The position numbers were made by a program, and so were the translations under genes. A stretch of 64,000 bases of DNA from the NCBI GenBank assembly GCA_016235665.1, contig JACRJI010000014.1, positions 1-64,000 of the forward strand. Direction: 5' to 3'. This document shows, piece after piece, positions 2,043-22,888 of the stretch; within the stretch, counting starts at the first letter, position 1, and every line of letters begins with the position of its first letter. This DNA is from a candidate division TA06 bacterium. Lineage in GTDB: Bacteria; Edwardsbacteria; AC1; EtOH8. A model generated the notes under the pieces. That model was not told the origin of the DNA. It was given only the letters and a program-made list of their open reading frames with translations, and did no database searches.

Positions 2043-5000
2043 CTATTTTACCAGCACCATTTTTCTGGCCTGGCTGAAATTACCGGATGACAACTTGTAG
2101 ATATACACTCCCTCGGAGACCTTTCTTCCGGCCTCGTCTTTGGCATCCCAGATCACCTGCTGCTGGCCGGATTTCTGGTAGCAGTTGACCAGGGTCCGCA
2201 CCAATTGCCCGTTGAAGTTGTAGATCTTTAGCGACACCTCCCCGGAATTCTCCAGCTGATAGGAGATCTGGGTCTTGCAGCGGACCGGGTTGGGGGAGTT
2301 CTGGGATAGGGCTGTAATCAGGGGAAGCACCGGCGCGGCAAAGCGCGCATCCTGTGCCACATCGTAGTCGCTGGTGCTCCAGGAGGCCGGCGGGGTGTAA
2401 AGAACGGCGGAATTCAAGGCGGCGGTGGTGCCCAGTCCCAGGGTGCCGGCCTGGTTCTCCACTCCGGCCACGTAGGTCTCGGCGGTGGTGATGCTGCCCC
2501 ACTGGAGCTTGATCTTGCCGTCTGGGGTCAGGATCATCTGGAAGGTCTGGGTGCTGGTGTTGGCGTAGTTCTTGACCGCATTGAAGGATACCACGAACTT
2601 GGTGGCCGAGGAATAGTAGGTGATGGTGCCGCCGCCGGAGACGTTGAGGTCCCTCCAAACCCCGGCGATCAGCGCGTTGGGGGCCGCGGTGTTGGGGATG
2701 GCGGCCGGGGTGTAGGCGGTGGAACTGGTGCCGAAGTTTAAAAACCCGTTGGAGCAGATGTTGACCGCAGTATAGCTGGTCCCGTAGAAATTGAAGGCAA
2801 AGCCGATGTTGACCGCCACCGCTTGGTCGTCACCGGTCAGGCCGCTGGCCGTGGTGGCCGAGGCGTCCCAGCCGTAAGTGGCCGAGGCCTTGGTGTAATT
2901 GGGGGCGGTGGTCCCGCCGCTGGTCCCGCCCTTAAGGTACTCCTCCCAGGTGGTGGCGGCGCAGATGGGCAGGTTGTCATAGGTGGCATCGTAGTTGGAG
3001 GTGGTCGAGTTGTGGAAGATGGCGATGCCCCGGGCGCTGGCATAGGTGGTGGAGTTCTTGTAAAGCTTTACCGCATTGGTTACCCCGCTGATGATGCCGT
3101 CGCAGGCGGCGGTCAGGGTGGGCCTGGTGGTGATGGCGGCCTTGACCTTGGCGGCGAAGTCCGAAAGATCTATATGGTAGCTGAAATAGCTGGTGGAGAA
3201 TTTCTGGGTGTTGGTCAGCGCGGTGGTGATAGAAGCGCTCAGGCCCGCGCCCCGGGCGGCCATCAGCTCGTTGGCAAAGGTGTTGACCGAGGTGTTGAGG
3301 GCCGCTATCTGGGTCAGGTCCACCACCGACAGGGTGGACTGTCCGGAGGTGCCGTTGATGATGGCCTTGCCCATGTCAATGGCGCTGGTGGTGGGTGTGG
3401 TGTTAAGGGTGTTGAGCCAGGTGGTGTAATACCAGCCGGCTGAGCCCTCGGTCTCCTCGGAGACGTTGGCCACGTTGGCGTAGTTGCGTGAGATGTCCAG
3501 CACTTCCCACATGCCCATCAGGCAGGCGTCCCAGCCGATGTGGTCCAGGTTCCGGCCCAGGGCGGTCTTGATCTGGGCCATGGCCCCGGCGAACTCGCCG
3601 TTGGCGATGCCGATCACCGAACCGTGGGAATCGTCATTGGAGAAGCCCTTGATAACCGCTGTCTCGCCGTCTTTCTTGTACCAGCCGTCGCCGTGGTCCC
3701 ACATCACCAGTGAGTAACGGTTGGCCGGGTAGTTCTGGATGGCCCAGGTGGCGAAGTTTACCAAAGTGGTTGGGCTGCCCATGTCCACCTCGCCCAGGTC
3801 CGAGATCTGGTTGGCCGCAGTGGGGGTCATGCCGTTGGTGATCTTAAAGCGCTTGCAGGTGGTCCAGTTTTCGTACTGGGTGTCATAGCTGGAGGAGCGG
3901 TCCATCTGGACGATGACGTTGATCTTGCCCGAACTGTACGAGGCGGCGGCCATCTCCAAAAAGTCGGCTATGCCGTCGGGTTCCAGGTTGTTGTCGGCGT
4001 TCAGGTAGACCATGATGGTCCATTCGGCGCCGCCGGTGGAGGCTGCCGCCTGGCTGACGGTGATGGTCTTGGGCGAGCCGGTGGTTCCGGCCGGGGCGGT
4101 GGCGGTGACGGTCACCGTGGCCGAACGGGCCGCGCCGGTGTTGGCCGCGGCGGTCATGGTGAACGATCCCGGGGTGCTGCCGCTGGCGGCCGAGGTGGTC
4201 AGCCAGGTGGCATCATCGGTCACTGTGTAGGATATGACATCGGTTGAGCCGCTGTTGGTGACGGTTACGGCTGAACTGGTTCCACCGGCGGCGGCCGGGG
4301 TCCAGGAGCTCATGCTGACGGCCAGGGCCGGAACCGGCGTGGTTCCTCCGGTGACCGAGATGGTCAAACCGTAATTTCCGGCCGTCCCGGAATAGTATTT
4401 GCCCTTGGCATACCAGTAACCGGTGGCGTCAGCAGTGAATACCACCGAATCGGCCAGGCCTGCCCCGGCGGTGCTGGAGCCCTTCTGGACCTGGGAGGGG
4501 TTGAAAAGGTAAAGGTCAAAATCCAGGCTGGCTCCCGGGGTGATCTTAACTTTGATTAACTGGCCGGCGGTAACGCTGAACTTGTAATAGTCGGTGGTGT
4601 CGGTGCTGCTTAGGTAGCAGCCGGTCCAAGAACCAGGGCTTACCGAAAGAGCAGCTGTAAAAGTATTCCCGGCATCGGCGCCGGACCCAGCATCGTTCTG
4701 GATTACCGTGCTGGCGGTGCCGGTCAGTACCACGTCGTCGATATAAACCCCGGTGTTCTGGACGCTGGCATCGCTCATGAACCAGAACCGGACTTGGGTG
4801 GCCGTGACCGGGATGGTCACAGTCTGCTGGGCCCAGGTCTGGTAGCTGCCGGACCGGGACCAGGCCGTGGTCCAGGCGGTGCCGCTGTAGTACTGCAAAT
4901 ATATATAATCGTAGCTCGTTTCGGTGTATTGCCAGATGTAGAATTTTAGGGTGGCGCTGGTGTATCCGGAAAGGTTTACTGTCCTGGTCATATAATTGTT

Positions 5001-5210
5001 CTGGCTGGCGGCATAGGGGTTGACTTCGTCGCAACGGGCGCTGTACGAAGCGCTATTGTAGCTGGTGGTCGATTTTACCCATCCGGTGGTTGGGGAAAGA
5101 GTCCAGCCGGTGGGGAAATTGGTCATGTCATCAGAGAAAATGGTGGTCTGGGCCAGGGCGCCCCCGGCCAGTAGGACCAAAGCCAGAACCAGTAAACTTA
5201 ACCGTTTCAT
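2043..5210 (-). CDS. Secreted clostripain-family (C11) cysteine protease
   Basis: This is a 1055-residue multidomain exoprotein. In order: signal peptide (1-20, ending GGALA); a jelly-roll/MAM-like carbohydrate-type domain (about 22-165); a PPC pre-peptidase C-terminal domain (170-290); a BACON-like Ig domain (295-390); a C11 peptidase domain (about 395-770); a nidogen-like beta domain (790-950); and a FlgD-like/type-A sorting domain ending in KMVLVK (965-1055). The catalytic pair is visible: His506 in WDHGDGW and Cys563 in DACLMGMWE. C11 enzymes cleave after Arg or Lys. A modest Shine-Dalgarno (AAAGG) precedes ATG 5210. The gene stands alone. Its upstream region carries a sigma-54 promoter at 5271-5286 and faces the kinase and activator genes, which probably control it. 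Secretion is predicted; no secretion apparatus is encoded here. Confidence 0.9.
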   Translation of the reverse strand: MKRLSLLVLALVLLAGGALAQTTIFSDDMTNFPTGWTLSPTTGWVKSTTSYNSASYSARCDEVNPYAASQNNYMTRTVNLSGYTSATLKFYIWQYTETSYDYIYLQYYSGTAWTTAWSRSGSYQTWAQQTVTIPVTATQVRFWFMSDASVQNTGVYIDDVVLTGTASTVIQNDAGSGADAGNTFTAALSVSPGSWTGCYLSSTDTTDYYKFSVTAGQLIKVKITPGASLDFDLYLFNPSQVQKGSSTAGAGLADSVVFTADATGYWYAKGKYYSGTAGNYGLTISVTGGTTPVPALAVSMSSWTPAAAGGTSSAVTVTNSGSTDVISYTVTDDATWLTTSAASGSTPGSFTMTAAANTGAARSATVTVTATAPAGTTGSPKTITVSQAAASTGGAEWTIMVYLNADNNLEPDGIADFLEMAAASYSSGKINVIVQMDRSSSYDTQYENWTTCKRFKITNGMTPTAANQISDLGEVDMGSPTTLVNFATWAIQNYPANRYSLVMWDHGDGWYKKDGETAVIKGFSNDDSHGSVIGIANGEFAGAMAQIKTALGRNLDHIGWDACLMGMWEVLDISRNYANVANVSEETEGSAGWYYTTWLNTLNTTPTTSAIDMGKAIINGTSGQSTLSVVDLTQIAALNTSVNTFANELMAARGAGLSASITTALTNTQKFSTSYFSYHIDLSDFAAKVKAAITTRPTLTAACDGIISGVTNAVKLYKNSTTYASARGIAIFHNSTTSNYDATYDNLPICAATTWEEYLKGGTSGGTTAPNYTKASATYGWDASATTASGLTGDDQAVAVNIGFAFNFYGTSYTAVNICSNGFLNFGTSSTAYTPAAIPNTAAPNALIAGVWRDLNVSGGGTITYYSSATKFVVSFNAVKNYANTSTQTFQMILTPDGKIKLQWGSITTAETYVAGVENQAGTLGLGTTAALNSAVLYTPPASWSTSDYDVAQDARFAAPVLPLITALSQNSPNPVRCKTQISYQLENSGEVSLKIYNFNGQLVRTLVNCYQKSGQQQVIWDAKDEAGRKVSEGVYIYKLSSGNFSQARKMVLVK

Positions 5211-5270
5211 TTTCCAAGCCTTTCTTTATGTTTGATTACAGGTCATTTTTGGAATTCAAATATATCATAA

Positions 5271-5286
5271 TGCAAGATATGTGCCA
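5271..5286 (-). promoter_or_regulatory. Sigma-54 (-24/-12) promoter of the C11 protease gene
   Basis: Read on the minus strand the sequence is TGGCACATATCTTGCA. It agrees with every defined position of the TGGCAC-R-N4-TTGC-W consensus, with GG and GC separated by the required distance. Transcription would start near 5260, giving a leader of about 50 bases before ATG 5210. A sigma-54 activator gene lies 4 kb away on the other side of the same intergenic region. Confidence 0.85.
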
Positions 5287-5315
5287 TTTGTATAATTAAC
5301 TATATAATAACTTGC

Positions 5316-5330
5316 GTTGCAACATGTTAC
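5316..5330. promoter_or_regulatory. Weak third copy of the dyad operator
   Basis: GTTGCAACATGTTAC agrees with the dyad at 5610-5624 at about 10 of 15 positions and has its own AACATGTT core. It is centred about 63 bases upstream of the predicted sigma-54 start. Tentative. Confidence 0.35.
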
Positions 5331-5375
5331 GTGTAAGGTCAAAATATCATAAAAGACTTTTACTGTTATTTGGAT

Positions 5376-5390
5376 GTATCAATATGATAC
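5376..5390. promoter_or_regulatory. Upstream activating dyad (GTATCA-N3-TGATAC)
   Basis: GTATCAATATGATAC is a perfect 6-3-6 palindrome centred at 5383, about 123 bases upstream of the predicted sigma-54 start. That is the usual distance for an enhancer bound by a sigma-54 activator. A near-identical copy sits at 5610-5624. Confidence 0.65.
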
Positions 5391-5568
5391 GATAATAAAT
5401 ATATATCTGGTTATTTTATTAATAACAGATTGCAAATAAAACAAATAAAATGAGTTATATAAAAATTATATATTGTAAATAAAAGATACAGTCGAATTAT
5501 AGCTGTGTGATTAAAAGCAAAATGATGGGAAAAGAAGCAATAATACTTTAATTTATTTAAAATATTTC

Positions 5569-5597
5569 TTGCAAATCAAAATTATTTATGTTAAACT
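5569..5597 (+). promoter_or_regulatory. Sigma-70-type promoter of the kinase/activator operon
   Basis: A -35 box TTGCAA (5569-5574), a 17-base spacer and a -10 box TAAACT (5592-5597) preceded by TG (extended -10). The start would be near 5604, leaving only about 22 bases before ATG 5626. Confidence 0.6.
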
Positions 5598-5609
5598 GAA
5601 ATAATGAAC

Positions 5610-5624
5610 GTATCATATTGTTAC
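5610..5624. promoter_or_regulatory. Dyad operator against the kinase start codon
   Basis: GTATCATATTGTTAC is the reverse complement of the 5376 dyad with one mismatch. It occupies nearly the whole short leader between the predicted start of transcription and ATG 5626. There is no room for a Shine-Dalgarno. Binding here would be expected to repress the kinase/activator operon. Confidence 0.55.
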
Positions 5625-5625
5625 A

Positions 5626-8600
5626 ATGAATAAATTACTTAAAGATCAAAAGGTCGGCACAAAATATCAGGTGTTGGAATTTCTGGGAGAAGGTTCCACC
5701 AGCCAGGTATATAAAGCCGTTGACCTGGCCGGGGGCCAAACTGTGGCCCTGAAGCTTTTCTTAAAAGATTTCATTAATATTGATCTGGTCTGCCAGGAGT
5801 TCCGCCTTTTGGCGGAACTCAGACATCCCAATCTGGCTGCGGTACATGGTTACGAAAATTTCCAGGGCGAATGTCTTTATGTGATGGAATATGTGTCGGG
5901 CCCGGACATCCTGTGCCGCAGCCGGGACCTGTCCCTGGAAGAAAAGGGACGCAAGCTGATCGACTTGTGCCACGCCCTGGAATACATCCATTCCCGGAAC
6001 ATCGTTCATCTTGATTTAAAACCGTCCAATCTTCTGCTGGACGGGAAGGACGCCGTAAAGCTGCTGGACTTCGGGCTGGCCCAGAGCGGCGCTTGTTTTC
6101 CCCTGAAGATATCAGGCACTCCTTTCTACATTTCTCCGGAGGTCATCTCCGGTCAGTCTCCGGATGGCCGGGCGGACCTGTATTCGCTGGGAGTGCTGAT
6201 GTATCAGATATTCACCGGGGTCCTGCCATTTGAGGCCTCCTCGCTGAGAGAACTGGTCAAAAAACATCTCTATCAGCCGCCTCAGCCGCCCCAGTTATAC
6301 AATGCCGTCCTATCCGAACGGCTTCAATCATTGATCCTAAAACTTCTGAGCAAAGATCCCAATGATCGGCCGGCCGGCGCCGGCGAGGTGGCGGCGGAGC
6401 TGGCCAGGATCATCAAGCAAAGCCCCGGCGTATCGCCCGATTTCCTCCCCCCGCCTTTTGTTTTCAACAGCCGTCTGGTGGGCAGGGATAAAGAAATGGC
6501 CGAACTGCGCCAGGCTGCCCAGAATGCCATTTCCGGCCAGGGCTCCACCGTTTTCATTTCCGGCGAGACCGGCATCGGGCGCACCAAACTGCTGACCGAA
6601 TTCTCCCTGGAGGTCCAGCTTTTGGAGTGCCAGGTGCTGTGGGCCCGCTGTTATCAGCCAGATACCGCTGCCTATGACCTGGCGGCCCAGCTGTTGACCC
6701 AAGTTCTGCCTTTGGCCCAGAACTTTTGTCCCCAGGCCCTCTCAGAGTTCGGCCCCAAATTGGCTGAGATCGCTCCGGGTTTCAGGTCACTGCCCGAGGT
6801 CAGCAGCCTCCCGGTTCCGGCCGCCTTGCCGGCTCCGGAGCAGAAGCTGCGGCTTCTGGATGCCGTGGCCGGATTCATCATCAAAACCCTGGAGGCTGGC
6901 CCCTCCCGGGCAACGGTCATCATGCTGGAAAGCATCCACTGGATAGACCGGGAAAGCCTGGAGGCCATCAGCCACCTGATGCGCAACATCTCCCGTTCCT
7001 CCATTCTGGTGGCGGGCAGCTTCAGGAACGACGACCTGGCTCCGGGGCACCATCTGCCGGCGGCTATTGAGTCCCTGATCGCCGAAAACCTGGCAGAGCA
7101 ATTATTCTTAAAACGATTGAGCTTGCCTGAGGTATCCGAACTCATCCGGAATATTTTCCCCGGGATCCAAAACCCCGGGCCGCTGATTTCCAGGATACAT
7201 TCCGAAACCGGGGGGAACCCCCTGCTGATAGAAGAAGCGGTGCGGTACCTATTGGACTCGGGGGTTATACAGCGGCGCCACGGGCATTGGCTGATATCCG
7301 GGCCGGCGGATGGCCGGCTGAGCCTGCCCGACGATTTGGACAAGACCTTTAAAGTTAAGCTGGGAAAACTTTCTTCAGACCAGTTGCTGCTGATCCAATC
7401 CCTGGCGGTGATGGGGCGCCCGGCCACCGCCCGCCAAATCTCCGTCATGACAGAACAGGATATTTGCCAGACCGGAAAAGATCTGCTCTACCTTAAGAGC
7501 CAAAGCCTGCTGGCAGTTTTACGGGAGGAAAAAGGCGAGCCACTTTACGGGTTGCATCACTCCAAAATAACAAGCGAAATCTGCCGTTCCGCCCCTCCGG
7601 AATTGCTGTCCCGGCTGCACCGGGCCGCCGCCCGGATACTGGAACAGCAGGAAAATCATTCTCTGCAGGAATTGTCCGCTTTGTCCCGCCATTGGGAAGA
7701 AGCCGGGGAGCCGGGTAAAGCCAGGAAATTCCATCTTTTGGCCGGAGACGGCCTGGCGGAATTTTCCAAGCAGCAGGCCATAGAACATTACCGCCAGGCC
7801 ATAGAGCTGTCTCCATCCCGGCAGGATGCTCCGGTGCTGGAAAAACTGCAGAAGCTTTACTATGTTTCGGGGGAATTCCAAAAAGCCTTTGAGGCCGCCC
7901 AAAGCCTGCACCAGGCCAAAGGGCCGACGCCGGAAAGCTATTATAACCTGGGGCGGTGCCAGGAACGGCTGGGAAATTATGAATCCTCCATAGAATACCT
8001 GCGGCTGGGATTGTCAATTTCTGGCAACGATCCCCAATTGTCCGCCCGCCTGATGGGGGCCATAGCCGTGACCTGCATCAGCCGTGGAGAATACCGGACC
8101 GCGGAAAAATACTGCCAGGAAGCCTTAAAATTACTTCCTCAAAACTGCAAGCCTTCGGTGGAGGCCGAGATTTTCAACACGCTGGGGCAGGCCTACTGGC
8201 ATTTGGCCGAATGGAGCCAGGCCCTTTCGGTGCACCGGAAGAGCTTGGAGATCAAGGAGCGGGAGGGCAGCCTGTACGGGATCGCCAACAGCCACAACAA
8301 CCTGGGGCTGGTTTATTACCGGATGTACGACTGGGACCGGGCGGCGGAGTCCCACCAGAAGAGTTTCGCCCTGCGGGAAAAGATCGGCGACATCAGCGGC
8401 CTGGCCAAATCCTACAATAATCTGGCCCTGATCTCCCGGCATCTATATGACTGGGACCAGGCCCTGGAGTACCACAACAAAGGTCTGCAGACAATGGAGC
8501 GGATCGGATCGGGCGTTGAGACGGCCGCCTCGCTGGTCAATATCGGATTGATCCACAAAGCCAAGGGGGAATGGGACCGGGCCTTGTGGAGTTATAACCG

Positions 8601-9336
8601 GGCCATCCAACTGGCCGTCACCATCGGAGCCAAGAACATCCTGCTGGACGCCTATATCCGCAAGGCGGAGTTTTACCTGGCTCTGGGGAGTCTGGAGGAC
8701 GGCAGTTTGTTCTGCCAAAAATCGCTGGGCATGGCCGAAGAACTGGGCGGCCGCCTGGAGATGGGGCGGGCCCTGAACATTTCGGGACGCATCAGCCAGA
8801 TGCGCCAGCAATGGGACAAGGCCAAGGACGACCTTTCCCGGGCCAGGGAGATCTTTGCCGGGCTGGACATCAAAGCCGGAGAGGCCTTTATCCTGAAGAA
8901 CCTGGCCGACCTGCACCGCGAGCTGGGAGAGCTGGACCAGGCCGAAGTTTTGGCCGACAAATCCCTGAGCCTGGCCCAAAGGGTGGAGGAACAGCAGTTG
9001 GTGGCCGATATCCTGCTGCTGAAAGGCGAACTGCTGGAGGAGAGAGGCAAAAGCGGCCTCAAGTACATGGAATGGTCGCTGGAGATAGCCAATAAGGTCA
9101 ACACCGCCGAAACGGCCTGGCCCATTTTCTCGGCCATGGCCAGACACTACGTCCGGCACAAGCGCCATGATCTGGCCCTGGAACATTATAAAAAAATTCT
9201 GTTCTGGTTCAAGCAGGCTCTGGCCAATATCAGCCAGCCGGAGCTAAAATCCTCGTACATCTTCGCCCCCCGCCGGCGACAGATGTTCAAGGACATCAAA
9301 CTTTTCCGTCAGGAGGCAGCCAGCCATGCCGGTTAA
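5626..9336 (+). CDS. Ser/Thr protein kinase with AAA-type ATPase and TPR array
   Basis: This is a 1236-residue cytoplasmic signalling protein. The PknB-type kinase domain spans about 12-265, with the ATP-binding lysine in VALKLF (about 43), the catalytic loop HLDLKPSN (about 128-135) and DFGLA (about 148). The loop reads HLD in place of HRD, so this is a non-RD kinase. A STAND/AAA-like ATPase follows (about 280-620) with Walker A GETGIGRT near 312. The C-terminal half is at least ten tetratricopeptide repeats (about 720-1180). This layout is known from kinases fused to ATPase and TPR sensors. ATG 5626 has no Shine-Dalgarno; the dyad operator occupies that space. The stop overlaps the sigma-54 activator start by 11 bases, which implies coupled translation and joint function. 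The input signal is unknown. Confidence 0.88.
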   Translation: MNKLLKDQKVGTKYQVLEFLGEGSTSQVYKAVDLAGGQTVALKLFLKDFINIDLVCQEFRLLAELRHPNLAAVHGYENFQGECLYVMEYVSGPDILCRSRDLSLEEKGRKLIDLCHALEYIHSRNIVHLDLKPSNLLLDGKDAVKLLDFGLAQSGACFPLKISGTPFYISPEVISGQSPDGRADLYSLGVLMYQIFTGVLPFEASSLRELVKKHLYQPPQPPQLYNAVLSERLQSLILKLLSKDPNDRPAGAGEVAAELARIIKQSPGVSPDFLPPPFVFNSRLVGRDKEMAELRQAAQNAISGQGSTVFISGETGIGRTKLLTEFSLEVQLLECQVLWARCYQPDTAAYDLAAQLLTQVLPLAQNFCPQALSEFGPKLAEIAPGFRSLPEVSSLPVPAALPAPEQKLRLLDAVAGFIIKTLEAGPSRATVIMLESIHWIDRESLEAISHLMRNISRSSILVAGSFRNDDLAPGHHLPAAIESLIAENLAEQLFLKRLSLPEVSELIRNIFPGIQNPGPLISRIHSETGGNPLLIEEAVRYLLDSGVIQRRHGHWLISGPADGRLSLPDDLDKTFKVKLGKLSSDQLLLIQSLAVMGRPATARQISVMTEQDICQTGKDLLYLKSQSLLAVLREEKGEPLYGLHHSKITSEICRSAPPELLSRLHRAAARILEQQENHSLQELSALSRHWEEAGEPGKARKFHLLAGDGLAEFSKQQAIEHYRQAIELSPSRQDAPVLEKLQKLYYVSGEFQKAFEAAQSLHQAKGPTPESYYNLGRCQERLGNYESSIEYLRLGLSISGNDPQLSARLMGAIAVTCISRGEYRTAEKYCQEALKLLPQNCKPSVEAEIFNTLGQAYWHLAEWSQALSVHRKSLEIKEREGSLYGIANSHNNLGLVYYRMYDWDRAAESHQKSFALREKIGDISGLAKSYNNLALISRHLYDWDQALEYHNKGLQTMERIGSGVETAASLVNIGLIHKAKGEWDRALWSYNRAIQLAVTIGAKNILLDAYIRKAEFYLALGSLEDGSLFCQKSLGMAEELGGRLEMGRALNISGRISQMRQQWDKAKDDLSRAREIFAGLDIKAGEAFILKNLADLHRELGELDQAEVLADKSLSLAQRVEEQQLVADILLLKGELLEERGKSGLKYMEWSLEIANKVNTAETAWPIFSAMARHYVRHKRHDLALEHYKKILFWFKQALANISQPELKSSYIFAPRRRQMFKDIKLFRQEAASHAG

Positions 9337-12126: not shown

Positions 12127-13083
12127 ATGAATCATAAAACTAAATGCATACTAATAGCCCTGATACTAGGACTGGTAAGTGTTGCCCACTCGTCAGAGTT
12201 CAAAAACCCCTATAAGCTGCGGGATGTAAAATTCAGCAAAAAGCCTAAATTGGACGAATGGTGCGATGTATCGTTCAAATTGGTGTGCGATGGCGATTAT
12301 ATGATTGATTCGTTGCCGCTTAAGTTTATAATATGGGGCATACAGACCGACCAGCCTAACGAACAAATGCCAAAATGGTATGACATCAGGAAAGACTCCG
12401 AAAAGATTGTGAAGATCAGGATACGGCCGTATTTTTACGGTTGGTGCAAATTGGGGATGGAAAGCTTTGATGGGGATATTAACATAGGTATAAATGATAA
12501 AGGCAAATGCACTTTTGCGGGTGGCAGCGCCGAGTTGGGGGCCAAGCTTGGTAAGCCGGAGATTGAAAGAGAAGTTATAACCATGGATGGGCCGCTGACT
12601 ATAAGGGAATATTCACCCAGCCAGACAGCCAGACAAAGGAAGCTGTTATCGGTGGATACTATGGACGGGAATCTATATGGGTCTGATTACTATAAAAATG
12701 TTAAATTTATTAAAAGCAAGAAGGGGATATTGAAGTCAATCAGGGGCGGCGGAAACATATTGAGATATGATTTTTATCTGTCGCCATTACCGGAGTGGGG
12801 CAAGAAATCTAAGCTCAAGATAAAATTGGTGACAAGAAGGAATGAACCGCCGAAAGTTGAAGTATATAAACGGTTTGATTGGAAATTATTTTTGATAAAT
12901 GATACGATACCTCCGCTAAAATATTCGGATAATGCTGTATTTATATTGGAGTTTAAAATTAAACCAATTAAAGCAAGCGGGCAACATGCTTGGTTCAAGT
13001 TTGTATATAATCAATCTGACTCAACCGTAAGGGGCTTTGATATATATTTTGATGAAAAAGGAATTTTAAAACCTTTAGAATAA
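12127..13083 (+). CDS. Secreted protein of unknown family (paralogue A1)
   Basis: This 318-residue protein has an N-terminal signal peptide (about 1-22, ending VAHSS). No known domain is recognised. It pairs with the gene at 13643: the N-terminal 130 residues are clearly related (shared KFSKKPKLD, DSLPLK, RIRPYFYG, GINDKGK). A block from about residue 198 (SKKGILKSIRGGGNILRYDF and beyond) is identical over some 41 residues. The gene heads a four-gene A-B-A-B run with short gaps and good ribosome sites (AAGGA at 12113-12117 here). It is AT-rich compared with the flanking housekeeping genes. An envelope or exported role together with the large B protein is inferred from the signal peptides and order only. 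Confidence 0.75.
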   Translation: MNHKTKCILIALILGLVSVAHSSEFKNPYKLRDVKFSKKPKLDEWCDVSFKLVCDGDYMIDSLPLKFIIWGIQTDQPNEQMPKWYDIRKDSEKIVKIRIRPYFYGWCKLGMESFDGDINIGINDKGKCTFAGGSAELGAKLGKPEIEREVITMDGPLTIREYSPSQTARQRKLLSVDTMDGNLYGSDYYKNVKFIKSKKGILKSIRGGGNILRYDFYLSPLPEWGKKSKLKIKLVTRRNEPPKVEVYKRFDWKLFLINDTIPPLKYSDNAVFILEFKIKPIKASGQHAWFKFVYNQSDSTVRGFDIYFDEKGILKPLE

Positions 13084-13094
13084 GGGAACCTGAA

Positions 13095-13646
13095 ATGAAG
13101 CAGCAATTATCATGTATAACAGCATTCATTCTAGTGATAGCTGTAAATGTTATGGCTTCGGGAATAAACGACAGCCATTTAAAGCCCTTGAGTGCTCAGA
13201 ATGAATTAGTGCCCAAACGTGGTCGCATTGTGAAATATTACGACCGTGGACAGGGTTTAAAAACGGTGGTTTTATCAGGTTCATCGAGCCATTACCAAGA
13301 CGAATCTGGCAAGTGGCTGGAAATAAATACCAAAATAGTTGGCAATACCAAAGGCACCTGGAATTACCGGTCAATTAATAATACCATAAAAGCCTATTGG
13401 AACACAGATCAGATGGCAGTTGCCGATGGTGATGAAAGAATACTGTTGGAATTAAAAGGATATGGCGCCAATAACGGGAAGGATATCGTTAAGACAGCAA
13501 GGGATAAAACTGCAAGGTCTTTGGCAAAGCAAAACCGCCTGGTTTTTAAGGATTTATTCAGCAATGCTTCCGAATTTTATCAGGTAGCACCCGAGCAAGC
13601 CTATTGGGAAAGCGAAGGGCGCATGTACAAAAGGGGTAACACATGA
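13095..13646 (+). CDS. Truncated paralogue of the giant secreted protein (B1)
   Basis: This 183-residue protein has a signal peptide (1-21). It aligns with the N-terminus of the 2768-residue protein at 14582, sharing KYYDRG, SSSHYQDE, NNTIKAYWN, MAVADGDE and FSNASE. The match ends near residue 168; a short unrelated tail and a stop follow. All the DNRLRE, peptidase-like and sorting domains of the long copy are missing. It looks like the stub left when a second A-B unit recombined into this place. AAGGGA before the ATG and a 4-base overlap with the next gene suggest it is still translated. The retained domain resembles the N-terminal part of WapA/RHS-type surface proteins. Confidence 0.7.
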   Translation: MKQQLSCITAFILVIAVNVMASGINDSHLKPLSAQNELVPKRGRIVKYYDRGQGLKTVVLSGSSSHYQDESGKWLEINTKIVGNTKGTWNYRSINNTIKAYWNTDQMAVADGDERILLELKGYGANNGKDIVKTARDKTARSLAKQNRLVFKDLFSNASEFYQVAPEQAYWESEGRMYKRGNT

Positions 13647-14569
13647 AGCTTAAAACCCAATGCATAATAATAGCCCTGGCGTTGGCGTTGCTAAACAATG
13701 CAGCCCACGGCACCTTTAGATCGCCTTACGAGCTAAGGGAAGCCAAGTTCAGCAAGAAACCAAAACTTGACCAATGGTGCACATTGAAGATAAAGGTGGT
13801 GTGCGAAGGCCGGCCCACCGCCGACTCGTTGCCATTGAAAATTAACAGCCCGGGAATACAGACCGACTTGCCCGGTGATTCTCTACCCGTATGGCGCGAT
13901 ATAAAAGAAGGCGGAGTATACCGGGCCGAGTTCAGGATCCGGCCCTATTTTTACGGCAGCTCATTGCTTACGGTTTCCATCGCCAATGGGGGGGTGTTTA
14001 TTGGAATAAACGACAAGGGTAAAAGCAGCTTTGCCGGGACCAGCGCCGAGCTTAATAAGCTATTGGGCCCCTGGCAGGTGTCGGGCTATAATATTTACGG
14101 CCAGCCGGTGCATGACCTTTCGGAAGAGCAGGAAAGGAAGAAGGAAGAAATATTGAGCGGGTATTTGAAGGACGGTATAAAGTATATACAAAGCAAGAAG
14201 GGGATACTGAAGTCTATCCGGGGCGGCGGGAATATATTGAGATATGATTTTTACCTGTCGCCATTACCTGAGTGGGGGAAGAAATCCAAGCTTAAGATAA
14301 AGTTAGTGACAAGAAAGAAGGAACAGCCGAAAGTAGAAGTATATAAAACATCAGATATGAAATGTTTTATTAATATTGATACATTGGCGCAATTGCCTTT
14401 TGTAAAGGGGAAAGAGGGTATATTTACTTCGGAGCTGGTTGTAATGCCCAACAAAGAGAATGGCCTGCATACATGGTTTAATTTTATTTATGGTGAAAAA
14501 GATACAATCGAACGGGGGTTGGATATTAATTTCGATGAACAGGGCAAGATAAAACTTAATATATGGTAA
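13643..14569 (+). CDS. Secreted protein of unknown family (paralogue A2)
   Basis: This 308-residue paralogue of the 12127 product has a signal peptide (1-23, ending NAAHG). Its start overlaps the B1 stop by four bases and has AAGGGG at 13631-13636. The middle section differs from A1 (SGYNIYGQPVHDLSEEQ against the MDGPLTIREYSPS region). From about residue 181 a segment is nearly invariant between the two copies. In that segment the DNA of the two genes differs at about a dozen synonymous positions and no residue changes, so the protein sequence is under constraint. It is followed after 12 bases by the giant B2 gene, presumably its partner. Function unknown. Confidence 0.75.
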   Translation: MKLKTQCIIIALALALLNNAAHGTFRSPYELREAKFSKKPKLDQWCTLKIKVVCEGRPTADSLPLKINSPGIQTDLPGDSLPVWRDIKEGGVYRAEFRIRPYFYGSSLLTVSIANGGVFIGINDKGKSSFAGTSAELNKLLGPWQVSGYNIYGQPVHDLSEEQERKKEEILSGYLKDGIKYIQSKKGILKSIRGGGNILRYDFYLSPLPEWGKKSKLKIKLVTRKKEQPKVEVYKTSDMKCFINIDTLAQLPFVKGKEGIFTSELVVMPNKENGLHTWFNFIYGEKDTIERGLDINFDEQGKIKLNIW

Positions 14570-14581
14570 AAAGGAGATAGA

Positions 14582-17500
14582 ATGAAAAGACTTATTTCTA
14601 TATGCTTTGTCGCTATATTGACACTGTCTTTATGCAATGCGTTTGCTTTAAATATAAATGAAAGACAACTTAAGCCGAAAGTCGCTAAAAACGAAATAAA
14701 AGAACAGCGCGGACGCAATGTGAAATACTACGACCGTGGGCATGGCATAAAAACAGCAGTTATTTCAGCATCATCCAGCCATTATCAAGATGAAACAGGG
14801 AACTGGCAGGATGTAAGTACCGCTATACAGACCAACACCAAAGGTGCCTGGAATTACCAATCTATTAAAAACACTATCAAAGCCTATTGGAACGCAGACC
14901 AGATGGCAGTTGCCGATGGTGATGAAAGTATACGGTTGGAATTAAAAGGATATAGCACCACCAGCGGGAAGGATATAGTTAAAACGGAAAGGAATAAAAC
15001 TGCAACGACATCAGCAATACAAAATCAACTGGTTTATAAGGATGTTTTTAGCAATGCTTCCGAAATTTATTGTGTAGCCCCCGACAAGGTCTGTTTTGGT
15101 TTGCAAGTTAACGATAAATTTATGTCCCAAATCGCAAAAGGCGGGCAATTGGAATACGAACTTTATTTATCCAAAGGGATGGGGTTGTTTAAACCCAACG
15201 GCGAGCCAGTTAAGGATTCGTATGAAACCAATGGGAATGTCATTATAAGGGATAATGAAAAGGGAACCCAAAAATATATTCGTCCATTCGGCATGTTTTT
15301 AAAAGACAGCGCTAAAGCAATTGCACAGTGCATCAGCAAATATATTGTGGAAAATGACGGATCGGTAAAAATATTGGTTATAATCCCGGAAAACCTTAAA
15401 ACTAAAAGTTCGATTATTGATACATTCTCCATAAAGAGCGCCATTGAGAAATATTATCCGGTTGCGGACGCTGCCATTTATGAGGGTTCGCCGGATATTG
15501 TACAACCTGCCTATAGTTATTATTTGTACGTAGGGGTAGATTCGTCGTGGTTTACCGGAGGCAATACCTATCTTGCCCGTTCCGTAATAAAATATGATAT
15601 TAGTGCAATACCCGCAGATGTAGTAATAAGGAAGGCCACTCTGCGGTTGAACTTTATTAGCCGGTACGGACTAAATATATACTCAAATACACCGCATAAG
15701 ATAACCGTATATCCTCTCTCCGTTGATTGGTGCGATACGAACATTTCTTGGAATAGAATAGGTGCTAATTATTACAAGACCGATACAGCTTCAATTTATA
15801 TCATACCCGATACAGTTGTTGGCAAAGAATATTCGTGGTCCGTTACTGCAATAGTCAATAAATGGTATAAAGGTACCATACATAATTATGGTTTTATGTT
15901 GGATGGCTATGGTGATGGAAAAATTATTATTGATGAATTCTATTCAAAAGAAAGCTATTATTTCGGTCCCGACACCAATTTTTATGATCCCCAATTAGAA
16001 ATAGATTATAGCTGCGGAGCCGATCTGGTTAGCGATAGTACACCGGATGGCTGGTCAGCGCCTATCATCGTTTCCCACACGCCCAATGCCGTGTCCAGCG
16101 ATAACATATTCAGCCCTGAGGATTCGGTTTACATAAGCGCCAATGTTTACAACCGGCTTGATACGAATATTGTTGATTCATTTTCAAACGCGATATATGC
16201 CGATACCCAGATAATACACGCCTGGAGTTGTCCCGGCGGCTTGCCGGCCCAAACCAGCAGTCCCTGTCTTGACGTCCGTTATTGCCTTAAGCCGGGCATA
16301 AACGTCATAAAGACGGTGGCGGACGTCAACGGCGATATTCAGGAAACGGATGAGGACAACAACGAGTGCATTGTTAACATAAAAGCCAACCGGCCGCCAT
16401 ATGCCTGTTTTACAGACTCACCGGCTGTGAATAATATAGATGTTCAACTGCAACCTATATTCTACTGGCATTACCCCAACCCGGCCGATCCGGATGGCGA
16501 TACCGTTGTAAATTTCAGAATACAGATTGCTACGGATTCATTGTTTGCCGGTGTGGTTTGCGACAAATGGACGGGTTCGGGCAATTGCTTTTGGACCTAT
16601 GACGGCTATCTGAGCTTAAAGACAGCATACTACTGGCGCATAAGGGCCACCGACGGCCAGACCGAGCAGACAACTTGGAGCAATGTCAACAGTTTTACGA
16701 CAACTGACAAGATACTGGTATCCGGGACTGTAAAATATGAGAACAATAATTATGGCATAGACTCAACAAGGCCATTGTCAAAAGTTAAAATAGAATTTTA
16801 TGACCTTAGTATTAATTTGACGACTCCGTTAGATACGGCAACAACCGATGAATACGGGAATTTTAATTTTGGGTTGGTTAATGGCTTTAATGTGAATAAT
16901 AGTACAAATAATTTGCGGCTTAAACTTATTTTAAAAAATAATGCTGTATGTGACATACTTGATGGGCAGACAACAGGGAATCCGGCAATGGAGATATGGT
17001 TACCACCTTTAAATAGGGCAGACTTAATCTATTCATCAGATGGCAGTATTTATTATAATAAATCCATAAATAGTGAATACACCGGTGATCAAATATACCC
17101 CGAAAACAATAAGGACCTTGCCGCTTGCTACATTTACGATGCCATATACAAAGAACGTGATTATTTTAAAACACAGGCGGCTGTCTGTAATCCAAATCTT
17201 TTACCCATTAATGTTTATTTTAAATACAGCAGCATAGACAGTATAAGCAGTTTTGAGGTTGATAATACTGACCAGCGCATAAAAATAACAGCAGTGCGCT
17301 GTGTAATGCTAAGCGATGGCACACCCAAGCCCGGATTTTACGGTTCAAGCCCGTTCCATGAATACGCCCATGCCGTAATGTACAATAATTACAAAAACCC
17401 AACTACCGGGGCATACGGCGTTTTCCCAGGCGGTCAGGCGCCTAAAAAACACTGTCCATACGACACGACTACGCCAGCAGAGGCCCTTATTGAAGGCTGG

Positions 17501-20500
17501 GCCGAGTTCGCCCCCTGTGCGGTTAATAACAGCACCTCTTATCTATATTATTGGAATGACTCGACTCAAAGCAAGGTAGAAAACATTGAAACTAACACCT
17601 GGCATGCCCAGATAAAATATAACCCGGACAGCACCAAAAGCGACAGGATAGAAGGCACGGTGGCTTCGGTATTGTGGGACATTTATGATTCCAACAACGG
17701 CGACGAAGCCGGATGCGAGATGACAAAAAATATCAACACTATCTTTAGTACATTGCAAAGAAACGTACCCGGTAAGACGTGGGGGCTTTCTTTGCAGCCG
17801 GAGGGCTTGGAGCAAATATATTTGACGTGGGATAGCTTAGAAAGACCGAAATTGAAAAATATATTCCGCAATCATTGGTATGACCGGGATAAGTTATATT
17901 CTTCCATAGATGCGGGCGAAAGAATTATTCATAAGAACAACGTGTTCAGCGGCAACATCACCACCCTTACCGCCACTGTGGTTGATACCGAAAACAATAT
18001 CCCGCCCCATACTGGCGACAAGATGTACAAAATCGAAGGCCAGGACAACAACACCGGCGACAGCTACGCCTGGTGGGAATACATGAATAACTTGGATATT
18101 CCCCTTTCTCCCGACGCCGGTTATGCCGCCAAATATCTCTCATTTTGGATATATGTAGCCGAAGCGCCAGGCAGCGGCGGATATATCGGGCTTGATTTGG
18201 TGACCAAGAAAAAAGGAAGCATCAAGGATTATTCCTATAACGGGTTTTGCATAACCGACCAATATGGTCAAAGGCTTAACCCTGCTTTTCGCGCCGTACC
18301 CAAGGGCCAGTGGCTGCATTACGTGTACGATCTATCCGTCCTTAATCCCTCGATTTATCCGAACGATACTTTGAGCCAAATCCTTATTGGTTACGATGAC
18401 GGCGACCCGGCCGAGACTGGTTACTTTTTGGCCTACGTGGATGACATAGAGATAAATCATTTTCCTTATCCGATCTTGGCAAATGGTTCAGTTGTGGACT
18501 CAACCACCGTTCGTCTAACTTGGACTGACAATAATTCTGATGAGAATGGGTTCCTGGTCTGGTGGAAACTCAAGGCCGACAGTACCTTTACTGTCCCGCC
18601 CATAACGGCAGACTCCGTGCCGGGGAGCGGCGGCACCGGCTCTTGTTTGGTAACCGGCCTTACTACCGGTCAAACTTATAATTTTATGGTACGCTCCAAA
18701 CGTAGCGATCAGATTTCCGCTTATGAATGGAGATACCCGATAGTAACGCTGGCACTGCCTGAAAAGCCCGCTATCTCAACAGTGGTATTAGATTATAATT
18801 CGGAAGAGGATAAGCCGATTATAAAATCCATGGTAAGCGGGGGATTATTTGGAACGGGCACTACAACATATTATGATATCGAGAGGAAAATTGGAGTTGG
18901 TGGCGACTGGCAATGCATAGCCACAAAACAAGAACCTTACAACTGGGAATATTTAGATAAGATTGATTTCAATAACGATTATTATTACAGGTCCATTGCC
19001 GTAAATGGAATGGGAAAATCAGATTATTCTACAATTTACATGACTCAGGTATATTTCATGGCCCCGCAACTGTTGTCTGTTACCCCCGGCCCCGGCCACT
19101 TTTATATTGAGTGGAAAGACACGATGAAAACATTGGAAAGCGGCGTAATAGAAGAAGGGGAGGAAGATAGCTCAGGAATAATACCACAGTCAATAGCGGC
19201 AATAGGCAATCCCTATTACGACGGGGTGGCATTCTATTATAAAAAGGCGACCGACAGCACATGGCAGATGGCATATTATCCCGATGCAGGCATGATGTCG
19301 GACTTTGATCTAAATACTACGCTATCTCCAATGACCACGTATAATGTAAAAATAGCCCGTGTTTGGATTAATAACGGTAGGTTGGTTTATACGCCGTTTA
19401 CACCGACGGTTGATGTATTCGTGCCAAAGAGTGGCTATACAAATTACAGTAACGCCCGTAGGTTGTTCCGCGGGGGCGACAACAAACTGAATGCAACGTT
19501 CTATGACGGAGCGCAGATATACTGGGCCTCGTCAATCAACAATGGTTTGTCGTGGTCTGTTGCGAATCCCAAAAACGGCAACAATTCAACCATAGCCGAA
19601 AAGCGTTCAAACAATTCGGTTTACTCGGTACGCATTAAAAACGACAGTTTGTTGCTGGACAGCTTGGGCACAACCTCTGGATTTGGCAAGGTAATTAAAA
19701 CGGGCAAAAAGATGTTCAATCCGGCCATAGCCACGGATACTTTGGGAAATATTCATTGCGTCTGGGCTGAGACAACTTTGACGGTACAAAACAATGGTGT
19801 ATCTGGGGTGCCTAATTATACGGTGAGCTTTACTGTGAAAATATATTATGCAAAAAGAACAAGTGGTGTATGGCAGCCAATAGAGATAATTAATCCCATA
19901 GTTTCCGGGTCGGGCACGGACTTAAGTTATCCTAAGTTACCCCTGCTGTATATACCCCATCCATCTATAACAACAATTTATTCCGGCACCCAAGTAATTC
20001 CCAAAATAACATGGGAACACCAGCATGTAGAATTGGAAGGTTTGTTCATTAATAAAGATTGGATTAGAGATACTTTGGCAGTATATTATTCAACGGGATT
20101 AAATACTGGTACAAGAATAAGCGCCGCCGGGCTTGTAGCGGAATACCCCTGCTTGGGCGTTAATCCTGGTGGTCAGCTTGCCCTTACCTACCAACAAAGT
20201 GGTGATATTTACCGTATCACCAATAACGGCACTACCTGGAGCACCCCATATAACGTAAGTAACAATACCGGCAGTTCCCAAATGCCAACCGTGGCTTACG
20301 ACAAGGGCGGTGCCATGCACATTCTTTGGTATGATGACAGTGAAAGCGGTTTTGTACAAAAAACATCAACCTTGCCTGCCGGAACTGACGCCAAATTGGC
20401 CATAGCAAAACTTACTGAACTGCCACAAGGTGAGGAGTCAATAGTCTGGGAAGACAGCGGCAAAGATACAACAAACACAGTGAGCGTAACTCTGTCTAAA

Positions 20501-22888
20501 ACTGTCACAACTGAAGAATTAACTGCAACAGAAAGCGTTCCTCAGATATTCTACCGCCGCTATAAAGACAATGCATGGTCGCCGACCTATCGTCTTACCG
20601 CCAGCGAGGATATATCAGTATACCCGGCATTGCCTCTGACCGATGATGCTGCCCAAATGGGCTTTTTATGGACCGAGGGTAATTATGTAAAATACAAACG
20701 CCTGCCCGATTTAGACGGACCAACAGTGACGGTCACATACCCCAACGGCGGAGAAGTGCTTTATTCAGGACGGAGATATAATATAACCTGGTCCAGCACG
20801 GATAACCGAGGCATAAAAGAATATGCCTTATATTACACCACCAATTATATGGCACAAGACGACCCCACCGCCATTGATGCAGTTACACTTTGGCGTCCTG
20901 TGGCGACCGTGCCAGGCAACCTTAATTCCTATTCCTGGCGGGTGCCCTATAATGTGGCTTCAAACGCTTGTAGGTTCAAGATCGTGGCCTACGATTCCAG
21001 CGGGAATATAGCCACCGATATCAGCGACAAGAGCTTTACTATAAAGAGCCGCGATATAGCAGTGGTGGTCACCGACAAAGCCATAGCATATAACAACGCC
21101 GGTAAAATTGCCCGTTCCAGCGATGGCCTGCTGCATGTCTGCTATAACGGTATAGACAGCGTGTACTATATGGCGTCGTCGGACGACGGGCAAACCTGGG
21201 CAACGTCTCTTGCCCTGGATAAAGGATCTTTACCGACGATTGCAACTGACAGTAAGAACATGCCAGCCATGGCCTGGATAAAGCAATGGGATAATATAGC
21301 CGGGGGAGGTGTATTCTTTAGCCGTCAGACTGCCGCTGGCTGGACCGCGCCCGAAACCCTGGCTTATATGCAAGGTGTTCTTTGGGATTACATAGGAGGG
21401 TACTCACCACCGGCTATGACCATCAAAAACGATACGGTCTCGATAGTTTATGAATACTCTTACGGCGGTGGCATACCCCCGCATATTGCCAAAGGTTGGG
21501 CTTTGCACCATACCCGGTTTGCCGTGAACAATGTCGCCGGTAAAAAAGATACGACGATAGACTCATATACTGAGATAATCAATCCCCCTATCTGGCAAAC
21601 TCCGGCATCGGCTTCCATTGCCACCGACTATAAAGGATATGACCATATCAGCTGGCACCGAACTGATAAGGTCTATTACCGGATAAGAAAACCGGATGGC
21701 AACTACGGCAATATTGTAAAACTTTCCGGATCTGGTATCGCTCAAAATCCCTGCATCAGCATTTCCGGGGTGGCTTCAGCCGTTTGGGTGGAAGAAGGCG
21801 ACATTTACCAGCGTACGGGCTTTGATCAGAAGTGGGAAACCGCCATCAATGTCAGCGCATCCGGGGCCAGTTCCATGATGCCATATATTTGCGGCAGCGA
21901 CGTGCTTTGGACCGAGGATGTATTAAGCGATTACGAGGTTTATTTGTCCTCCTATTCTACTGCCAAGATGACCTACGATGTGTCCGAAAACCTCTCTTGT
22001 ACTGATTACGCTTCGATCTTCCCACACGAAACAAAACTGCAAACCAATGAGGGAACGAAAACCTACCGTATCTGGGCAGAAGAGATAGAGCCTGAAGTGT
22101 TATGGGGGCTTACCTTCATGGCCGACACCACGGAATTGGAGCCCACTTATGCTTTGGATGTCGGGCAGGCGGAGCCGTCAATATTCACTGTGCAAAGAGA
22201 TGGGTATATAACTTACGGCACGGCAGCCAAGGCCAAAAACACCGTTACCGAACCCTTTAAAACCGTGGATTATGATACTACCGCCCTGATTTATAGTTTT
22301 GACAACTTTGATCCTGACAAGAAGTATAAAATCACTTTGAGCTTTTATCAGGAAACAGGGCAGGAGATCAAACTTAAGCCAATCGTCAATAAACTGCCGT
22401 TGGGTGAGATAAAGGTAACTTCCGGCGAAGAAGCGATTTTGGGCAAGCCCTTGCCCGAGGCAAGTTATAAAGACGGGCAGATCACATTAACCATAGAAAA
22501 AATAAAAGGCCCAATTGCGGTTTGCGGCAAGATACTCATTTACGAAAATCCCCAGGGCAACGGAAACGGCGGGGCCCAGTCTGCAGAAATAACCAGTATC
22601 ACCCCCAACTACATCAATAAACTCTACCAGAACTGCCCCAATCCCTTCAGCCACAAAACAAGCTTCAATTACCAGATCAAAAATCAGGGCTTGGTAACAT
22701 TTAAAGTCTATAATGCCCTGGGCCAGTTGGTAAAGACCTTGGTCAAGGAAACCAAACCGGCCGGGGCTTATCAGGTGGAATGGGATGGCAAGGACGGTTG
22801 CGGGCTTAAAGTATCTTCCGGGGTTTATATCTACAGGCTGCAGACCGGAGACTTTATGGAGACCAAGAAGATGGTGATTATTAAGTAA
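14582..22888 (+). CDS. Giant secreted multidomain protein (B2) with HEYAH motif and sorting domain
   Basis: This 2768-residue exoprotein has a signal peptide (1-24) followed by a WapA-like N-terminal region (30-280), a DNRLRE domain (about 300-475), a CARDB-type Ig domain (480-603), a fibronectin-III-like domain (605-710) and a carboxypeptidase-regulatory-like domain (711-790). A zinc-peptidase-like region (836-1106) has H926-E-Y-A-H930 with EGWAE at 971-975. Then come a lectin-like segment (1110-1295), two fibronectin-III domains (1295-1480), BNR/propeller-like repeats (about 1615-2000), an NGGEVL-type Ig domain (2045-2155), more propeller-like repeats (2160-2480) and a FlgD-like sorting domain ending KMVIIK (2672-2768). 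AAGGAG at 14571-14576 fixes the start. It is the last gene of the A-B-A-B run, before a strong terminator. Likely a cell-surface adhesin or degradative enzyme. Confidence 0.85.
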   Translation: MKRLISICFVAILTLSLCNAFALNINERQLKPKVAKNEIKEQRGRNVKYYDRGHGIKTAVISASSSHYQDETGNWQDVSTAIQTNTKGAWNYQSIKNTIKAYWNADQMAVADGDESIRLELKGYSTTSGKDIVKTERNKTATTSAIQNQLVYKDVFSNASEIYCVAPDKVCFGLQVNDKFMSQIAKGGQLEYELYLSKGMGLFKPNGEPVKDSYETNGNVIIRDNEKGTQKYIRPFGMFLKDSAKAIAQCISKYIVENDGSVKILVIIPENLKTKSSIIDTFSIKSAIEKYYPVADAAIYEGSPDIVQPAYSYYLYVGVDSSWFTGGNTYLARSVIKYDISAIPADVVIRKATLRLNFISRYGLNIYSNTPHKITVYPLSVDWCDTNISWNRIGANYYKTDTASIYIIPDTVVGKEYSWSVTAIVNKWYKGTIHNYGFMLDGYGDGKIIIDEFYSKESYYFGPDTNFYDPQLEIDYSCGADLVSDSTPDGWSAPIIVSHTPNAVSSDNIFSPEDSVYISANVYNRLDTNIVDSFSNAIYADTQIIHAWSCPGGLPAQTSSPCLDVRYCLKPGINVIKTVADVNGDIQETDEDNNECIVNIKANRPPYACFTDSPAVNNIDVQLQPIFYWHYPNPADPDGDTVVNFRIQIATDSLFAGVVCDKWTGSGNCFWTYDGYLSLKTAYYWRIRATDGQTEQTTWSNVNSFTTTDKILVSGTVKYENNNYGIDSTRPLSKVKIEFYDLSINLTTPLDTATTDEYGNFNFGLVNGFNVNNSTNNLRLKLILKNNAVCDILDGQTTGNPAMEIWLPPLNRADLIYSSDGSIYYNKSINSEYTGDQIYPENNKDLAACYIYDAIYKERDYFKTQAAVCNPNLLPINVYFKYSSIDSISSFEVDNTDQRIKITAVRCVMLSDGTPKPGFYGSSPFHEYAHAVMYNNYKNPTTGAYGVFPGGQAPKKHCPYDTTTPAEALIEGWAEFAPCAVNNSTSYLYYWNDSTQSKVENIETNTWHAQIKYNPDSTKSDRIEGTVASVLWDIYDSNNGDEAGCEMTKNINTIFSTLQRNVPGKTWGLSLQPEGLEQIYLTWDSLERPKLKNIFRNHWYDRDKLYSSIDAGERIIHKNNVFSGNITTLTATVVDTENNIPPHTGDKMYKIEGQDNNTGDSYAWWEYMNNLDIPLSPDAGYAAKYLSFWIYVAEAPGSGGYIGLDLVTKKKGSIKDYSYNGFCITDQYGQRLNPAFRAVPKGQWLHYVYDLSVLNPSIYPNDTLSQILIGYDDGDPAETGYFLAYVDDIEINHFPYPILANGSVVDSTTVRLTWTDNNSDENGFLVWWKLKADSTFTVPPITADSVPGSGGTGSCLVTGLTTGQTYNFMVRSKRSDQISAYEWRYPIVTLALPEKPAISTVVLDYNSEEDKPIIKSMVSGGLFGTGTTTYYDIERKIGVGGDWQCIATKQEPYNWEYLDKIDFNNDYYYRSIAVNGMGKSDYSTIYMTQVYFMAPQLLSVTPGPGHFYIEWKDTMKTLESGVIEEGEEDSSGIIPQSIAAIGNPYYDGVAFYYKKATDSTWQMAYYPDAGMMSDFDLNTTLSPMTTYNVKIARVWINNGRLVYTPFTPTVDVFVPKSGYTNYSNARRLFRGGDNKLNATFYDGAQIYWASSINNGLSWSVANPKNGNNSTIAEKRSNNSVYSVRIKNDSLLLDSLGTTSGFGKVIKTGKKMFNPAIATDTLGNIHCVWAETTLTVQNNGVSGVPNYTVSFTVKIYYAKRTSGVWQPIEIINPIVSGSGTDLSYPKLPLLYIPHPSITTIYSGTQVIPKITWEHQHVELEGLFINKDWIRDTLAVYYSTGLNTGTRISAAGLVAEYPCLGVNPGGQLALTYQQSGDIYRITNNGTTWSTPYNVSNNTGSSQMPTVAYDKGGAMHILWYDDSESGFVQKTSTLPAGTDAKLAIAKLTELPQGEESIVWEDSGKDTTNTVSVTLSKTVTTEELTATESVPQIFYRRYKDNAWSPTYRLTASEDISVYPALPLTDDAAQMGFLWTEGNYVKYKRLPDLDGPTVTVTYPNGGEVLYSGRRYNITWSSTDNRGIKEYALYYTTNYMAQDDPTAIDAVTLWRPVATVPGNLNSYSWRVPYNVASNACRFKIVAYDSSGNIATDISDKSFTIKSRDIAVVVTDKAIAYNNAGKIARSSDGLLHVCYNGIDSVYYMASSDDGQTWATSLALDKGSLPTIATDSKNMPAMAWIKQWDNIAGGGVFFSRQTAAGWTAPETLAYMQGVLWDYIGGYSPPAMTIKNDTVSIVYEYSYGGGIPPHIAKGWALHHTRFAVNNVAGKKDTTIDSYTEIINPPIWQTPASASIATDYKGYDHISWHRTDKVYYRIRKPDGNYGNIVKLSGSGIAQNPCISISGVASAVWVEEGDIYQRTGFDQKWETAINVSASGASSMMPYICGSDVLWTEDVLSDYEVYLSSYSTAKMTYDVSENLSCTDYASIFPHETKLQTNEGTKTYRIWAEEIEPEVLWGLTFMADTTELEPTYALDVGQAEPSIFTVQRDGYITYGTAAKAKNTVTEPFKTVDYDTTALIYSFDNFDPDKKYKITLSFYQETGQEIKLKPIVNKLPLGEIKVTSGEEAILGKPLPEASYKDGQITLTIEKIKGPIAVCGKILIYENPQGNGNGGAQSAEITSITPNYINKLYQNCPNPFSHKTSFNYQIKNQGLVTFKVYNALGQLVKTLVKETKPAGAYQVEWDGKDGCGLKVSSGVYIYRLQTGDFMETKKMVIIK

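Follow-up and report, generated by a model that had tools for sequence, protein, structure and literature searches.

A predicted sigma-54 switch for secreted clan CD proteases, with a Hanks-type kinase as its probable sensor, in an uncultured bacterial lineage

Described enhancer-dependent systems and the present locus

Bacterial enhancer-binding proteins, the activators of sigma-54 transcription, have mostly been described either as ligand sensors or together with a partner histidine kinase. Among the described systems, one that comes close to the locus presented here is PspF with the psp operon of Escherichia coli, which has a divergent layout. PspF is an enhancer-binding protein that keeps its own level low by negative autoregulation (PMC7229158). 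The two systems have in common a sigma-54 target promoter, an AAA+ activator at an enhancer and autorepression (both predicted here), and the divergent layout; they differ because PspF lacks a sensory domain and is restrained by PspA, whereas the present activator carries a GAF domain and is paired with a kinase-STAND-TPR protein, and because the output is a set of secreted proteases instead of a membrane-stress response.

Also close is NorR of E. coli, for which we know of no kinase partner. It is a GAF-AAA+-HTH protein with sites in the norR-norVW intergenic region, and its GAF domain represses the AAA+ domain (PMC2941729). The activator considered here has the same architecture and candidate sites between its own gene and its target, yet its output is proteolytic instead of NO detoxification, and it does have a kinase partner. 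Finally, the FHA-domain enhancer-binding proteins of Myxococcus xanthus were reportedly described by Jelsbak et al. in 2005, and a link between Ser/Thr kinases and sigma-54 activators has been proposed for them. The present locus differs from those proteins: the Pfam scan detected no FHA domain, which places the activator outside the FHA type, and kinase and activator share one operon with a dedicated protease target. Literature searches on sigma-54 with clostripain, on sigma-54 with orthocaspase, and on kinase-sigma-54 pairs found no such system, with subscription papers covered in part. Thus, the type of circuit, namely enhancer-dependent, autoregulated and divergent, is a known one, while its sensor partner and its protease regulon are unusual. 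In this uncultured lineage, a conserved operon that couples such an activator to a Ser/Thr kinase-STAND-TPR protein, with a tiny regulon delimited by genome comparison, makes the possible control of sigma-54 transcription by Ser/Thr kinases open to concrete tests, and the placing of caspase-like and clostripain-like proteases under one switch gives a lead on the roles of bacterial clan CD proteases.

The features of the locus are collected in Table 1, with positions given in the window, i.e., the whole 64 kb stretch of DNA analyzed. As judged from the sequence, the regulator gene pair very probably switches on the neighboring protease gene through an enhancer-driven promoter. The fuller model, in which we have good though not complete confidence, is that of a dedicated enhancer-dependent switch for secreted clan CD cysteine proteases. 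Here, the activator would bind GTWWCA-N3-TGWWAC dyads and, from the site about 123 bp upstream, remodel the sigma-54 RNA polymerase poised on the -24/-12 box, turning on the C11 protease and, in relatives, also a C14 caspase-like lipoprotein. On the leader dyad, it would block the sigma-70 promoter of its own operon, so that its level stays low and steady, while the kinase/STAND/TPR protein, translated just before it, would serve as the cytoplasmic sensor and toggle it by phosphorylation or direct contact.

Table 1. Genes and candidate regulatory elements of the locus, in order of position
Feature	Position	Strand	Remarks
Secreted C11 (clostripain-family) protease, 1055 aa; putative target gene	2043..5210	-	Pfam PF03415, E 2.5e-35
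-24/-12 box TGGCACATATCTTGCA	5271..5286	-	60 bases 5' of protease ATG (5210)
Weak dyad GTAACATGTTGCAAC, centre -63	5316..5330	-	dyad form not conserved
YTGCAA element, 36 bp 5' of the box	5317..5322	-	present at 36-54 bp in 6/8 promoters
Predicted enhancer (UAS) dyad GTATCAATATGATAC, 6-3-6, perfect; centre -123 of protease start	5376..5390	.	each of the 8 promoters has a dyad, -120 to -135
Predicted sigma-70-type promoter of kinase/activator operon, TTGCAA-17-TAAACT	5569..5597	+	TTGNNA-17-TANNNT in 6/8 orthologues
Leader dyad GTATCATATTGTTAC, ~+6 to +20 from the start predicted for the operon; probably an operator for autorepression	5610..5624	.	dyad -16 to -18 from ATG in 6/8 orthologues
Cytoplasmic protein of 1236 aa, Hanks-type kinase - AAA_16/STAND - TPR; probably the sensor or gate	5626..9336	+	Pfam; orthologues in 8/10 genomes
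GAF - sigma-54 AAA+ (GAFTGA) - Fis HTH activator, 562 aa	9326..11014	+	Pfam; 8-orthologue alignment

The protease promoters and their conservation

The protease has a signal peptide, PPC and BACON domains, and a C-terminal sorting domain of the FlgD_ig/Por_Secre_tail type; its catalytic motifs WDHGDG and WDACLMG, with the catalytic His and Cys of Peptidase C11, are intact in six orthologues. Its transcription is predicted to start at about 5260. The first-pass annotation had proposed the -24/-12 box before this gene, the perfect dyad centred about 123 bases upstream of the predicted start, and a one-mismatch copy in the leader of the divergent operon, and all three proved to be in place; Pfam likewise bore out the identities it had given to the three genes, with domains of a C11 peptidase, a kinase/AAA_16/TPR protein, and a GAF/sigma54/HTH_8 activator. 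The box keeps the GG-N10-GC core, and the required sigma factor, RpoN, is encoded in the same genome, away from the locus (PF04552, E 6.7e-54). Over the 2.71 Mb genome, the pattern TGGCACN5TTGCW occurs at six sites, against two for a reversed control, and the looser consensus of the lineage, TGGYAYAN5TGCA, at 14 against one, so that sigma-54 sites are truly enriched. The upstream dyad is the genome's sole exact copy of GTATCAN3TGATAC and the leader dyad one of only four sites with a single mismatch to it, while three of the five sites in the window that match GTWWCAN3TGWWAC at 11/12 or better fall in this one intergenic region.

The comparison covered ten genomes of the family, the window's own included, for a total of about 25 Mb. 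Kinase, activator and C11 genes occur together in eight of them and are jointly missing in the other two (G002 and G005). Identities among orthologues are 47-83% for the kinase, about 61-87% for the activator, and about 69-85% for the C11 domain of the protease; the divergent layout is kept in five genomes (the window's own, G001, G009, G007 and G008). Two of the eight hold partial C11 genes, a terminal fragment of the orthologous protease in G004 and a gene whose contig ends before the promoter in G006; they were left out of the promoter comparison because this region was not assembled. The remaining six genomes provide eight readable C11 or C14 promoters, each of which carries a box, 44-123 bp ahead of the start codon, and a dyad at the enhancer distance listed in Table 1. 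The weakest of these dyads, those of G009 C11 and G001 C14, match at 10/12. When the promoters are aligned by the box, pairs of them agree on average at 71% of positions within it and at 31% in the flanks; the first value is somewhat inflated, as the box was located with a consensus, and the like placement in every promoter is the main point. Box and dyad have thus been kept while the surrounding DNA was randomized. Shuffling gave p-values of 0 to 0.03 per promoter, with related rows treated as independent.

The combination of the two elements is also specific. A search of all ten genomes for the box plus a dyad at a spacing of 82-110 bp returned seven matches, against one for the reversed control, and all seven lie upstream of C11 or C14 genes. 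No box plus dyad was found at the other sigma-54 promoters of the window's genome, and dyads located elsewhere, such as that at C13:208166 in L052, have no -24/-12 box nearby. The regulon recognized by the dyad therefore appears to consist of these proteases and the regulator operon. That the elements are consensus look-alikes, as an AT-rich intergenic region and a short dyad might produce, is barely credible, given that their conservation, spacing and specificity across genomes already contradict it. The data support the reading that the C11 protease has a predicted sigma-54 promoter whose dyad enhancers travel with it. Neither of the outcomes by which the first-pass annotation would have been refuted, box or dyads lost in close relatives or a genome lacking rpoN, turned up.

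The strongest single result comes from G003, where the proteases are on contig C28 and the kinase and activator on C86, and where both the C11 gene and the adjacent lipoprotein gene have nevertheless kept box plus dyad. This lipoprotein is a caspase-like Peptidase_C14 (PF00656, E 2e-15 for the G008 orthologue) with SGHG and DACQ motifs. Its gene was found in three relatives: beside C11 in G003, with a box and dyad of its own in G001, and as the first gene before C11 in G008. The description of the circuit as self-contained was thus too strong, since rpoN lies elsewhere and the protease is unlinked in one relative.

The control does not extend to C11 genes in general, because a second, distant C11 protease of the same genome (28% identical; G000 C16:304987-305646, L107) is without box plus dyad. 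No C11 protease was seen near the 46 loci of distant relatives in other genomes, whose activators are only about 35-50% identical, in the flanking DNA available, some of it short. In G001, the C14 gene adjoins the N-terminal remnant of a second kinase gene of the G007/G008 type with its own leader dyad (L038, 6921-7325, minus strand), as though two copies of the system had once merged.

The weaker dyad that had been read about 63 bases upstream of the protease start does exist, but what is conserved at its position is a YTGCAA motif. It is found in six of the eight protease promoters, compared with a mean of 0.17 of eight after shuffling, at matching places in L038, L039, L043, L044 and L101, and could be a site for a second regulator or for a bending protein.

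The regulator operon and its leader dyad

Dyads are present at the kinase/activator operon in all eight genomes that have it, and this bears on the identity of the protein that binds them. They might belong to another repressor, to a paralogous activator, or to a nucleoid protein, in which case the present activator would use other sites or none. The dyads are AT-rich, the same promoters hold the further YTGCAA motif to which no binder is assigned, and the genome encodes several activator paralogues (nine activator matches at E<=1e-60), one of which, with a similar helix, could bind the dyads instead. Yet the dyads stand at enhancer distance, none of them accompanies a box except at these proteases, and the genomes without the protease are precisely those without the activator; dyads at the activator's own operon are, moreover, what one usually sees with an enhancer-binding protein that regulates itself. 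We consider another binder quite improbable, and infer that the activator itself binds the dyads.

In six of the eight genomes, the kinase gene is preceded by the sigma-70-type hexamers given in Table 1 and by a dyad starting 16-18 bases ahead of the ATG. This places it shortly downstream of the predicted transcription start, except in G007 and G008, where it overlaps the -10 element. Such a position fits steric repression by the activator of its own operon, as far as placement can tell. With sites between the genes, one of them placed to repress the promoter of the activator, the layout is that of the divergent, autoregulated systems of the PspF and NorR type. G003 and G006 have theirs upstream of the -35 element presumed for the kinase promoter, so autorepression may not be universal.

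The leader dyad could have another function, as a remote enhancer of the protease promoter or as an element of the leader RNA. Being about 350 bp from the protease start, it is within enhancer reach in the linked genomes, but a dyad near the kinase promoter has been kept in the unlinked G003 (there upstream of the presumed -35), and the folds predicted for the leaders are weak and not common to the orthologues, which speaks against an RNA hairpin. Either role is therefore unlikely, and autorepression is the preferred reading. The leader of the kinase mRNA (5597-5626 and orthologues) is predicted to be only about 7-25 nt long, and a clear Shine-Dalgarno sequence is lacking there but present at the protease gene.

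The proposal that the activator turns on the protease and limits its own operon is borne out in part: the promoter and dyads are backed by phylogenetic footprinting, by co-occurrence and by the unlinked locus, and the leader dyad is placed for repression, with the binding step deduced. This regulatory reading is well supported as far as genome data reach, and the step that involves the kinase is the more conjectural one.

The kinase as candidate gate

The activator combines a Sigma54_activat domain (PF00158, E 6.1e-70) with a Fis-type HTH_8 domain (PF02954, E 3.7e-07), as enhancer-binding proteins do, and both its GAFTGA motif and its RQQxYR helix are invariant across the alignment of eight orthologues. 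A two-component system of the NtrC type was ruled out, as the Pfam scan detected neither a receiver domain in the activator nor a histidine kinase domain in its partner. No transmembrane segment was predicted in either regulator, so the signal is probably cytoplasmic.

In the partner, the kinase motifs (Gly loop, VALK lysine, HxDxKPxN and DFG) are kept in all eight orthologues, with a divergent Gly loop in G004, and the HLD or HMD at the catalytic motif marks it as a non-RD kinase. The STAND domain, at about residues 283-462, is similar to AAA_16 (E 2.7e-19), but its Walker A motif reads GxxGxGR(T/S), with arginine in place of the lysine in eight of eight orthologues, and its Walker B motif is degenerate. 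Because of this arginine, the ATPase part may be a non-hydrolyzing sensor or scaffold.

The genes of the two regulators overlap by 11 nt. In addition, kinase, GAF and sigma-54 modules like those of this operon are joined in one chain elsewhere, i.e., in L047 (1579 aa, same genome) and, in other phyla, in L137 (a Terriglobia MAG) and L125, with TPRs found in L047 and L137; our search found no study of such fused proteins. Fusion in some proteins, overlap of the two genes here and their strict joint inheritance make it very likely that kinase and activator are functionally linked. On the gene overlap within the operon and the fused proteins elsewhere rests our suggestion that the kinase gates the activator.

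The circuit could also be real with the kinase protein not its gate, if, as in NorR, a small molecule were sensed by the GAF domain itself, while the kinase had other targets or acted only as a scaffold. The GAF domain of the activator is in keeping with this, as NorR-like activators are under the control of their own GAF domain (PMC2941729), and so is the Walker A arginine, by which part of the kinase protein may be non-catalytic; the conserved catalytic motifs of the kinase, the overlapping and strictly co-occurring genes, and the fused proteins count against it. We regard this arrangement as somewhat unlikely, though the most serious of the alternatives weighed here, and hold it likely, from the same gene data, that the kinase works the switch. 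More tentatively, and with somewhat less than even confidence, the locus may represent a class of fused or split kinase-STAND-TPR/GAF-sigma-54 switches whose enhancer-binding protein has a Hanks-type kinase for a partner in place of a histidine kinase; this member would serve a clan CD pair, the C11 exoprotease and the caspase-like C14 lipoprotein, as one combined proteolytic output.

Two further observations concern neighboring or related genes. At G000 C14:88785-90744 (L105, 3801-6153), a paralogous GAF/sigma-54 activator is followed by a perfect -24/-12 box, which precedes a 126-aa gene and the gene of a secreted protein of 1215 aa, perhaps another pair of activator and target; places with a box near an activator were also seen in G007 C49 and G009 C5. 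Within the window, the region 12127-22888 holds two similar secreted proteins of about 310 aa, each followed by a short (13095-13646) or a giant (14582-22888, 2768 aa) related secreted protein, an apparent tandem duplication.
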